Shown piece by piece: positions 17,483 through 20,355 of a stretch of 38,667 nt of DNA (its first letter is position 1; every line of letters begins with the position of its first letter). The position numbers were made by a program, and so were the translations under genes. The DNA is from Saprospirales bacterium (GTDB taxonomy: Bacteria; Bacteroidota; Bacteroidia; Chitinophagales; Saprospiraceae): the NCBI GenBank assembly GCA_007693915.1, contig RECS01000132.1, positions 1 to 38,667 of the forward strand, read 5' to 3'. A model generated the notes under the pieces. That model saw nothing but the letters and a program-made list of their open reading frames with translations. It was not told the origin of the DNA and ran no database searches.

Positions 17483-19414
17483 CTAACCATAAATTATAGT
17501 TCGTAACTTTTCTGCTAGCTCACTCTCAACCTTTTTTAATTCTTTGTAAAACTCTAGGAAATCATCTAGCTCCTCATTATCTTTTATACCTTTTATCTTT
17601 TCTGCCCAATCGGCCGATAGTTTTCTTACTTTTCTAAGCTTAAGACTGATAACTATGTGCTCAGCATCTGATTCATAATTTTCTTCTGGGGGCTTTTGGT
17701 TTTGAAGTAATATGTTCCACCTTTTTTCCCAGTTTTCACTGTATTCAAATTCATCTGATATCAAACTAACAATGAGTTGAGCATCCTGAGGGTCAGATTC
17801 AGAGATCAAACTTTGAATATTCAATTTTGAAGGACCACTTGTACGGGCACTTATTTTATCCAGTAGATTGTTAATCTGTGGGTCATTAATGCCGGGCAAG
17901 TCTTTGTCCTGAATATTGTTGAAACAATATTGTGCGACAGACAAGCCGTTTGACATTGTTTCATTCCCATATTTCAGTATCAATTGTAAAAGAGCCAATT
18001 CCTGATGATAATCTGGACTACCAAGTTTTTCTTCCTCCTGTTTTACCTGTATTTCAAATGTCGTATCTTCTTGTCTTTCTCTTTCGCGGTCTTTCTTTCG
18101 TTTTCCTTTTTCCTGCCAAATTTTGGATCTTAGAATTTTATTGACTTCATTAATGATTACAGCTTCTTCGACCTGCAGCATTTCAGCAGTTTTACTCACA
18201 AATAAGCTTCGGCTGAGTTGATCATTGATTAATGCCAGTGTTTTTACCAATTCCTTTATGGCCTTGGATTTTTCGAATGGATCCTGATTACCTTTTGGGA
18301 AGTAGTGGGCAATTTTAAACTCGAGGAAATCTTGTGAGTTAGTTTTGAGGTAATTTTCAAAATCCTCTTTTCCAAGTCTTTTTATAGCTGAATCAGGGTC
18401 GTCCTCAGGATCCAGTATTACAACCTTCACGTTAACTTCTGCCTCGAGTAGTAAATCTATACTCCTGTTTGCGGCCTTTATACCCGCTGCATCCCCATCA
18501 AATATAAGAGTGGTATTAGCAGTAAATCGTTTTATTAATCTCGTTTGCCCCGGGGTTAAGCTCGTTCCGGAAACAGCAACCACATTTTCTATTCCGTGTT
18601 GATGAAGAGTAATAACATCTGTGTAGCCCTCTACAAGATAACAATTGTCTTCCCTTCTGATTGCAGTTCGTGCCTGAAAAATTCCATAGAGGATGTCACT
18701 TTTTACATAAATTTCTGTCTCTGGAGAATTAATGTACTTTGGGGCTTTTTTATTACTTCCCAACATCCTACCTGCAAAAGCAATGGGTTTTCCACTCAGG
18801 TTGTGGATAGTAAACATTACTCGTTCTCTGAAAAAATCATTTCCTCTATCCGAGATTAATCCAAGGGCTTTTATTCTATCCTGTTCATGTCCCGCTCTTA
18901 GGGCAGCACTTTTGAATGCATTTCCAGATCTGGGTGCATATCCTAAATCAAACTTATTTATTATTTCCTCATCGTAGCCTCTGTCCTGAAAGTATTGAAA
19001 GCCAACAGATTTTCCTTCCCCTGTGTTTAACAATTGTTCTTGAAAAAAGCGTTTTGCAAACTCATTGACGATATATAGACTTGCCCTTTCTTTATCTTTT
19101 TCTTGCTGCTCCGGACTTAAATCCTCTTCTTCAATTTCTATTCCGTATTTATTTGCAACATGTTTCAGTGCTTCCGGATAGGAATAGTTTTCATGTTCCA
19201 TTAAAAAATGAATGGCATTTCCCCCTTTTCCACAACCAAAACATTTGAAAATTCCCTTAGCAGGTGAAACGGTAAAAGATGGGGTCTTTTCATTGTGAAA
19301 AGGACAGAGTCCCAGTAGATTAACTCCTCTTTTTTTAAGACTAACAAAATCCTCTATGATCTCCTCTATCTGTACGGTCTCGTAAATTTTATCAATTTTT
19401 TTTGAAGAAATCAT
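17483..19414 (-). CDS. dnaG: DNA primase
   Basis: DnaG makes RNA primers at the replication fork. The 643-residue protein has the N-terminal CHC2 zinc site (Cys37, His40, Cys58, Cys61 in CPFH and CFGC), the RNA-polymerase core domain, and a Toprim domain with Glu262 in VEGYTDV, Asp306 and Asp308 in FDGDAAG, and the acidic PEDDPDS segment. A very basic, Arg/Lys/Glu-rich linker (about 436-450) joins it to the C-terminal helicase-interacting region, which is the least conserved part. Length is normal. The start at 19414 is well placed before the zinc domain. I see no consensus promoter directly upstream, so it may be read with yebC. A divergent small-RNA unit begins about 45 bases away. Confidence 0.96.
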   Translation of the reverse strand: MISSKKIDKIYETVQIEEIIEDFVSLKKRGVNLLGLCPFHNEKTPSFTVSPAKGIFKCFGCGKGGNAIHFLMEHENYSYPEALKHVANKYGIEIEEEDLSPEQQEKDKERASLYIVNEFAKRFFQEQLLNTGEGKSVGFQYFQDRGYDEEIINKFDLGYAPRSGNAFKSAALRAGHEQDRIKALGLISDRGNDFFRERVMFTIHNLSGKPIAFAGRMLGSNKKAPKYINSPETEIYVKSDILYGIFQARTAIRREDNCYLVEGYTDVITLHQHGIENVVAVSGTSLTPGQTRLIKRFTANTTLIFDGDAAGIKAANRSIDLLLEAEVNVKVVILDPEDDPDSAIKRLGKEDFENYLKTNSQDFLEFKIAHYFPKGNQDPFEKSKAIKELVKTLALINDQLSRSLFVSKTAEMLQVEEAVIINEVNKILRSKIWQEKGKRKKDRERERQEDTTFEIQVKQEEEKLGSPDYHQELALLQLILKYGNETMSNGLSVAQYCFNNIQDKDLPGINDPQINNLLDKISARTSGPSKLNIQSLISESDPQDAQLIVSLISDEFEYSENWEKRWNILLQNQKPPEENYESDAEHIVISLKLRKVRKLSADWAEKIKGIKDNEELDDFLEFYKELKKVESELAEKLRTIIYG

Positions 19415-19422
19415 AAAAAATA

Positions 19423-19455
19423 TTTGGTTGTTTTATTTTGGTTATTGTATATTTG
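19423..19455 (+). promoter_or_regulatory. Promoter TTTG-N21-TATATTTG for the small RNA
   Basis: TTTG at 19423-19426 and TATATTTG at 19448-19455 match both Bacteroidota promoter elements at a near-ideal 21-base spacing. A TTG at 19428 with 17-base spacing is an alternative. It points along the plus strand, where no protein gene follows, and predicts a transcript start near 19459. Confidence 0.6.
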
Positions 19456-19458
19456 CAT

Positions 19459-19551
19459 CAGTTATTTAAAAATACTCACCGAGTAAAAGATTTTAGGGTG
19501 TTCTCATAGTGTGTTCGGCCTCGTTGTCATCTTCGGCAACGAGGTTTTTTT
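19459..19551 (+). ncRNA. Candidate small RNA of about 93 nt between dnaG and yebC
   Basis: A full promoter lies just upstream and a strong intrinsic terminator closes the unit. Between them is a possible hairpin with CACC (19477-19480) pairing GGTG (19497-19500) and TAAA pairing TTTA inside it, then a single-stranded stretch, then the terminator stem. There is no convincing open reading frame. It lacks the SRP RNA core and is too short for tmRNA, RNase P RNA or typical 6S RNA. The 3' end overlaps the yebC stop codon antisense. Target and function are unknown. Confidence 0.5.
19519..19551 (+). terminator. Strong intrinsic terminator
   Basis: CCTCGTTG (19519-19526) and CAACGAGG (19537-19544) form a perfect 8-bp GC-rich stem, extendable by T-G and C-G pairs, followed directly by seven T residues (19545-19551). 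It works only in the plus direction: on the minus strand the T-run becomes an A-run in front of the hairpin. It is the best intrinsic terminator I see in the window and ends no protein gene. Confidence 0.8.
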
Positions 19552-20302
19552 ATGCCAATTCCCGTTCTAAATCCTCTGTCATTTCCAGATTATGGAATAC
19601 ATTCTGAACGTCCTCTACTTCTTCCAGTAGTTCTATTAATCCAAGTGCTTTTTTTGCCTCACGTACATCCAATTCAATGGTATTTAAAGGAATTCTTTCA
19701 AGACTAGAATTCTTCGGTTCAATGTTTAATTCTTCTAATTTTTTTTGCATGTTCCCAAAATCCTCAAAACTTACCGTCAGCGTAATTTCATCATTTTCCT
19801 GATCATACTCTATATCCTCAGCACCACTGTCAATTACTTCCAACTCAAAACTTTCTTTATCCTTTAAATCTGAGGGTATAACAAATATTCCTTTTCGTTC
19901 AAATAGGTAATCAACCGAACCAGATGTGGATAAACTACCTTCCCTTTTATTGAATGCGGCTCTTACTGCCGCAACCGTTCTATTCAGATTGTCAGTCGCA
20001 CATTCGACAAAAACAGCAATTCCTCCAGGTGCATAACCTTCATAAGTAGGTTGGTGATAAGATTCAGAACCGCTATCTTCTGCTTTTTTTATTGCCCTTT
20101 CAATATTATCCTTAGGCATATTAGCTCCTTTTGCATTGGAAAGGGCTAATCTTAGTCTGGGATTAAAATCTGGATCCGAGCTTCCTCCCTCTTTTATTGC
20201 TATGGTTATTTCTTTAATTATTCTAGAAAAAATTGCGCCTCTTTTTGCATCCGCAACTCCTTTCTTTCTTTTAATTTTTGACCATTTGTTATGTCCTGCC
20301 AT
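19550..20302 (-). CDS. yebC: YebC/PmpR-family protein
   Basis: A 250-residue protein beginning with the family hallmark MAGHNKWSKIKRKKG, followed by DAKRGAIFSRIIKEI, NPRLRLALSNAKGANMPKDNIERAIKKA and the EGYAPGGIAVFVEC segment. YebC proteins have been described as DNA-binding regulators (PmpR), and more recent work links members of the family to relieving ribosome stalling at polyproline-type sequences. The sequence does not decide between these roles. I start at the ATG at 20302; an upstream in-frame ATG at 20350 would add 16 residues before the invariant start. Its last bases overlap the small-RNA terminator on the other strand. Confidence 0.93.
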   Translation of the reverse strand: MAGHNKWSKIKRKKGVADAKRGAIFSRIIKEITIAIKEGGSSDPDFNPRLRLALSNAKGANMPKDNIERAIKKAEDSGSESYHQPTYEGYAPGGIAVFVECATDNLNRTVAAVRAAFNKREGSLSTSGSVDYLFERKGIFVIPSDLKDKESFELEVIDSGAEDIEYDQENDEITLTVSFEDFGNMQKKLEELNIEPKNSSLERIPLNTIELDVREAKKALGLIELLEEVEDVQNVFHNLEMTEDLERELA

Positions 20303-20355
20303 CTTGGTTAAATTATTTTTTAATCTGGGGTAAAATGTTTTGATTTTCAATTATG

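Follow-up and report, generated by a model that had tools for sequence, protein, structure and literature searches.

Organization of the locus between dnaG and yebC

In the window, which is the whole stretch of 38,667 nucleotides analysed here, a promoter, a putative small RNA gene and an intrinsic terminator follow each other on the plus strand between the genes of DNA primase and YebC, both encoded on the minus strand (Table 1). The promoter elements named in an earlier note on this DNA, TTTG and TATATTTG separated by 21 bases, are present, and the hairpin described there as the strongest terminator is the longest terminator-like site in the scans of both half-windows. The 93 bases were said to carry no protein gene; indeed, no open reading frame of at least 80 amino acids covers them, the last bases of yebC excepted, and the T run lies over the yebC stop codon in antisense, as had been claimed.

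Table 1. Features of the small RNA locus in the window
Feature	Position	Strand	Details
dnaG (DNA primase)	17483..19414	-	TIGR01391, 431.5 bits; divergent neighbour in most carriers
Promoter, Bacteroidota type	19423..19455	+	TTTG 19423-19426, 21-nt spacer, TATATTTG 19448-19455
Putative small RNA gene	19459..19551	+	start and end deduced from the -7 element and the T run, respectively
Upstream hairpin TACTC-ACC-GAGTA	19473..19485	+	hairpin enriched over shuffles at this position; sequence varies among copies
Core GGGUGUUCUCAUAGUGUG (= GGGTGTTCTCATAGTGTG)	19496..19513	+	nearly invariant; between the two hairpins, directly 5' of the terminator
Intrinsic terminator	19517..19551	+	12-pair hairpin 19517-19546, 6 pairs G-C, then T7
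yebC	19550..20350	-	NF001030; facing neighbour of the small RNA

The promoter pattern occurs four times in the window against 2.05 expected, a number reached in 13 of 100 shuffles and thus within chance, and the reality of the unit is established by comparison among genomes, not by the promoter pattern alone. On these grounds the promoter-to-terminator unit is almost certainly a functional RNA gene, and its earlier reading as an orphan small RNA gene is supported by its relatives. The gene is matched by covariance model R1 at 19483-19551 (46.5 bits, E 3.2e-10 in its own genome), and a genome-wide search found a single copy there. The predicted fold has a lower energy than all of 200 shuffles (z -3.05), which is mostly the contribution of the terminator.

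Core, terminator and distribution of the RNA family

A search of 100 relatives revealed that the 3' part of the RNA is far more conserved than the promoter and the 5' part. Towards more distant genomes a short common block is left, corresponding to 19496-19513 of the window. The copies share one layout: a variable stretch, an A-rich linker, GGGTGTTCTCATAGTGTG, a hairpin and usually a T run. Among 96 distinct copies (101 model matches minus the viral contigs L111 and L114 and identical rows) the core is conserved at 95-100% per position, with one position at 86%, in a search whose model was built on core-bearing copies and therefore favours the core.

The terminator hairpin varies by compensatory substitutions. 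In 22 copies of the major subtype, 11 of the 13 pairs of the helix show changes on both sides; the cells changed on both sides number 40 against 12.1 in shuffles, and 88.7% of the helix cells are paired against 76.8% after shuffling. When the partner is slid by 1 to 3 columns, this share falls to 31-52%. A run of at least four T follows the hairpin in 103 of 110 distinct complete copies; in the remaining seven, namely L125, L127, L129 and four array copies, this run is absent or interrupted.

The internal hairpin of the earlier note (CACC/GGTG) can be drawn in the sequence, but only its GGTG arm, which is part of the core, is conserved. The upstream hairpin TACTC-ACC-GAGTA appears to be the better candidate; a hairpin just 5' of the core is found in 28.6% of 112 copies against 7.2% of shuffles at score 14, and is thus enriched, not universal. 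By this comparison the conserved element is the core, predicted to be unpaired, and not the internal hairpin, and the core is shown to be constrained at the RNA level. Two other readings of the core were rejected. A small peptide, suggested by ATG GGT GTT CTC... in some copies, does not agree with the window type TTTAGGG, which has no start codon, nor with third codon positions that are, by inspection, equally invariant. A hairpin AUGGG-UGUU-CUCAU within the core is broken, uncompensated, by A/U at core position 1 and by A at position 10.

From these data the RNA is, as judged from sequence, a small-RNA family new to Rfam 15 and present across one bacterial family. Neither the window nor 20 loci gave any covariance-model match over the gathering score of Rfam 15, so that the unit is not assigned to a known RNA there; the sub-threshold matches lie far below gathering and are of the attenuator or leader type. 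None of the open-literature papers listed, judged by title or opening of the abstract, describes this RNA. The exact 18-mer core is present in 30 of 87 genomes of the window's family (f1) and in 0 of 211 others of the order; a reversed-pattern control was zero in the 298 order genomes. At E <= 0.01, model R1 has matches, some of them weak, in 162 of the 298 family genomes. A phylum-wide sample gave matches in 20 of 296 genomes, three of f1 at a best E of 3.2e-10 or better and those outside f1 at a best E of 2.0e-4 or worse. Both the named relatives of yebC and the promoter type indicate that the carriers belong to Bacteroidota. Among 15 named genomes reached through their yebC loci there were three weak matches, the best (E 1.8e-5) in Maribacter. 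The latter (L255) was rejected as a member, being a terminator without the core. Weak out-of-family matches were not counted; of those inspected (L168-L174, L255, L256), a shorter core-like stretch is seen in L168, L172, L173 and L256, a kind of match which the search favours.

Thirty family genomes without the exact core all possess dnaG. In the 29 that are readable upstream of it the element was found in none, within a scan of up to 1.5 kb which farther copies would escape; this indicates that dnaG does not need the RNA. Along a tree built from 88 DnaG rows, 13 changes of the presence label are required against 25.6 after shuffling, the tree being weakly resolved, with some near-copy rows and with one carrier of a variant core (L176) labelled negative. 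The difference suggests inheritance in blocks, with several losses or gains.

The core together with a hairpin also occurs on three viral contigs (L112:5729, L115:11941 and L113:2131), of which L112 and L115 are related. On L112 the RNA is located at the 3' end of a tail(-fibre) module and faces a DUF5675 gene. Two further viral contigs, L111 and L114, were rejected as carriers because their core match, at 21.9 bits, lies within a long open reading frame and is regarded as coincidence. Phage and plasmid collections gave no good match to the RNA.

Neighbouring genes, promoters and tandem copies

For the analysis of the neighbourhood, 80 carriers were taken from the 95 genomes with the strongest listed model matches, 15 being left out, and dnaG was located by TIGR01391, distances of up to 6 kb being counted from the start of the dnaG match. 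The RNA lies 0.07-4.1 kb upstream of dnaG in 64 of these carriers, within 565 bases in 53, within 1.4 kb in 61 and within 4.1 kb in all, and it is divergent from dnaG in 63, the co-directional exception being G376. As for the other 16 carriers, RNA and dnaG are on different contigs in 14 and 16 kb apart on the same contig in one, and in the last dnaG gave no match; dnaG falls outside the stretch read around the RNA in at least five of these carriers (L177, L178, L180, L182 and L187). A distance of 3.2-4.1 kb separates the RNA from dnaG, the two still being divergent, in L257, L258 and L259 (G363, G043 and G137); the intervening sequence contains open reading frames and, in G043, a masked stretch.

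A tblastn search over the loci found that dnaG adjoins the RNA in 62 of 76 carrier genomes, divergent in 61, and yebC downstream of the RNA and facing it in 12 of the 76, from 7 of 41 genera. Judged from part of the loci and from open reading frames, yebC was found in the window's genus and in L101 only, and could be taken as an accident of the genus; with 12 carriers from seven genera this reading was dropped, and the order yebC-RNA-dnaG is rather a recurrent and perhaps old one. Among the core-negative genomes, yebC is situated upstream of dnaG and in the same direction in 2 of 30 (L227 = G059 and L235 = G232), which shows that these two genes can stand in this order where the RNA is missing. 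The nearest upstream gene was called in 53 of 59 chromosomal loci, some of which share a genome; 50 of these genes are divergent and 37 are members of the dnaG cluster. On the downstream side, 51 genes are spread over 32 clusters, the largest with six members, and 35 of these genes are on the other strand. By these counts dnaG is by far the more constant neighbour.

The promoters were compared in 75 distinct upstream regions, the window's own being excluded as a duplicate. The arrangement TTG-17/24-TAnnTTTG is present in nine of them, against 0.4 in shuffles and one on the reverse strand. For the -7 element alone the counts are 13 forward and 11 reverse, with 4.2 in shuffles. Both elements occur in all five same-genus regions of the set (L091-L094 and L096), and in close relatives the -7 element and the terminator, which the note had paired, are both conserved. 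The TAnnTTTG type is that of the window's genus, and the promoter type varies between genera. Elements of the TGGCA(C/T) type, which may be sigma-54-like, a label of our own given from the sequence, were found in 9 of the 75 regions, and GCATAC...GTCT elements in 9 of 75 as well; neither type occurs on the reverse strand, and shuffles give at most 0.1 of each. Promoter-like elements of the forms TGGCA(C/T)...TTG/TGC and GCATAC...GTCT were seen at L182, L183, L186, L189 and others, and at L119-L121, L130, L132 and L134. Promoter types thus change while the adjacency to dnaG stays, so that the position beside dnaG outlives the changes of promoter.

According to the model matches, a genome may hold up to seven copies of the RNA, and many genomes have tandem copies. 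Tandem arrays beside dnaG occur in several genera; the window has a single copy. In L180 the copies are spaced by 85-96 bases, probably too tight for a full promoter per copy, and the terminators of this array are therefore likely to be read through. A variant core, TTCTAATAGTG, with AGT before GGG, was noticed in a late array copy of L126, L128, L184 and L194, and in L192 in the third of several copies. These late copies look as if a distinct sub-type were kept in the arrays.

Candidate partners and possible role of the RNA

Sites complementary to the core were looked for in several ways. Read in antisense, the dnaG codons for the HNEKTP motif resemble the core, and dnaG mRNA was considered as a target and rejected. 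With the site fixed, 0.5% of 1000 shuffled cores are as good; at the best common site (half of the 54 genes used) the share is 8% of 60. The energies of core-dnaG pairing, -14.35 at 62 carrier loci and -13.91 at 30 core-negative ones, do not differ (one-sided p = 0.32), and the dnaG codons at the HNEKTP site vary. The complement of a 17-nt core, allowing up to 2 mismatches, was found at 37 places in 15 genomes; 21 of these are RNA genes, and the 16 others compare with 30 for the reversed control, which argues against a family-wide antisense target. In the window's own genome the only such place is the RNA gene itself. A search for 16S rRNA itself, meant to include rRNA among the possible targets, gave no match in three genomes, 9 of 14 controls being positive.

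Ten of the 16 places outside RNA genes were examined with their loci, and four (in G137, G220, G223 and G283) belong to a second small-RNA-like locus. A loosened core-complement pattern occurs in 100 of 298 family genomes (reversed control 0). Among the matches listed, nine were judged not to be copies of the RNA, and five of them (G026, G137, G223, G283 and G502) adjoin another conserved core, TCATGGGATTATRA, after which comes a hairpin or terminator; no TCATGGGATTATRA accompanies the remaining four (G400, G410, G460 and a second site of G283). With G220 added, the second locus with a near-complement of the core is present in six genomes of the genera g7, g20, g93 and g104. In g7, g20 and g104 the second core is followed on its own strand, at a distance of 60-71 bases, by the complement; in g93 the complement is situated 58-59 bases upstream of that core. 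These complements form 18-22 predicted pairs with the core, and the predicted duplexes between the RNA and the second locus of the same genome, at -28.6 to -39.7 kcal/mol, are in every case lower in energy than the best of 300 shuffles. As complementarity was the criterion by which the sites had been found, these energies are not independent evidence, and the recurrent context is the stronger argument. The near-complement in a second small-RNA-like locus suggests that the core may pair with RNA. Alternatively, the opposite strand of the second locus may hold a core-bearing copy without the T run. Partner loci were seen in a minority of genomes, most carriers having none observed.

The TCATGGGATTATRA core with its hairpin or terminator represents a second putative small-RNA family found in hosts and on viral contigs. 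Its host loci are L271:1097 and 1517, L265 (minus strand), L214:1429, L217:1436, L213 and L223. It is present in seven viral contigs, including L277-L280 and L283, some with a terminator-like hairpin after it as judged by eye. In L266 (G410:C45) and L267 (G460:C331) the core, followed by TGTGGTCTG, lies within an apparent coding region of the other strand; both genomes are of one genus, and the core is exact in G460 and one letter off in G410.

The locus would thus carry the gene of a small RNA, about 93 nt long, that belongs to an RNA family of this bacterial family; many of the genomes hold paralogues. Such an RNA would begin with a variable 5' part, in many cases containing a small hairpin, continue with an exposed and hardly changing core of about 18 nt, and end in a terminator which drifts in sequence and is kept in nearly all copies. 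It probably works in trans by way of the core, base pairing with other RNAs being the most likely mode; base pairing taken by itself, and a role in replication, are each held with less confidence. The candidate partner would be the second small-RNA-like locus with the core complement in four genera, and with complementary cores each RNA could titrate or silence the other. The place beside dnaG suggests that transcription of the RNA may be tied to dnaG, and so to replication. A more speculative extension, which we regard as improbable, is a two-RNA circuit tied to DNA replication, in which the dnaG-linked RNA is opposed by the complement-bearing family, both occurring on viral contigs, and host and phage could adjust primase or replication by RNA-RNA titration.

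Several other explanations were weighed against action in trans. The role of the RNA might be purely local, with dnaG or a yebC-dnaG transcript as its sole object of control, through divergent or antisense transcription across the dnaG leader, and the core would then have no partner in trans. The adjacency to dnaG (64/80 and 62/76), nearly always divergent and despite changes of promoter type, agrees with this, as do the co-orientation of yebC and dnaG on either side of the RNA in 12 carriers and the yebC found upstream of dnaG in 2 of 30 core-negative genomes. Moreover, of the 44 bases preceding dnaG in the window most are occupied by the RNA promoter, and dnaG may therefore be transcribed from beyond it, across the RNA gene. 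However, antisense action needs no invariant 18-nt core, yet the core alone is invariant, and it is kept both in copies away from dnaG (L098, L099, L125, L127 and L129, the last three without a T run) and in the viral copies L112, L113 and L115, for which reasons a purely local role is considered unlikely. The core could also be the binding site of a protein, either an RNA-binding regulator or DnaG itself, with the RNA as a decoy or carrier. Near-invariance over diverged genera in the lack of a family-wide complementary target would be understandable then, and multi-copy arrays suit titration; complements of 18-22 pairs in the second loci of four genera would be unexpected if only a protein read the core, and this explanation, too, appears doubtful.

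A cis-acting, riboswitch-like leader or attenuator for the downstream gene is very improbable. The order of hairpin, conserved core and terminator resembles such an element, as does the type of the sub-threshold Rfam matches, but a conserved co-directional downstream gene is missing: the nearest downstream gene is opposite in 35 of 51 loci and spread over 32 clusters, and in the window the next gene, yebC, is on the other strand, which contradicts an attenuator there. Action in trans through the core remains the reading preferred here, at the strength given above.

The analysis provides the RNA family with a covariance model, a list of its carriers and a core that can be tested, and the second locus with its complementary sequence opens a direct look at pairing. 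It also raises the question why a small RNA is situated beside the primase gene in most carriers while the gene on its other side changes. To our knowledge, the small RNAs of Bacteroidota have hardly been studied outside Bacteroides. A non-coding RNA of this phylum with a similar length, about 100 nt, is 6S-Flavo (RF01685, a model of 108 positions). It has no match in the window and none in the window's own genome, where the search was also silent in 14 of 14 controls. The 6S RNA possesses one long closing stem, whereas the RNA described here has two separate predicted hairpins.

The FopS and GibS small RNAs of Bacteroides thetaiotaomicron, as far as the portion of their description consulted here goes, are multi-copy paralogues located in intergenic, antisense or 3'-UTR positions, with sequence also in phage (PMC11697453). 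Set alongside them by description only, the present RNA is likewise a multi-copy paralogous RNA of Bacteroidota with the same promoter type (PMC11697453), several copies per genome with core and terminator being found, and one in the window's genome. FopS carries its seed in the 5' part, represses SusC-type start sites and binds RbpB (PMC11697453). In contrast, the conserved core here is internal and next to the terminator and the 5' part varies, so that there is no conserved seed at the 5' end; the dnaG linkage of the present RNA also has no counterpart in the consulted part of the FopS and GibS description (PMC11697453). A second parallel, again from the part of the source consulted, is NsiR1 of Nostoc, which differs in phylum, gene and sequence and whose tandem, slightly different copies lie upstream of hetF with individual promoters and act in antisense on the neighbouring gene as well as on a second target (PMC9045159). 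In several arrays described here the distance from a T run to the following core is only some tens of bases; like NsiR1, the RNA forms tandem copies upstream of one conserved gene, here dnaG (PMC9045159).
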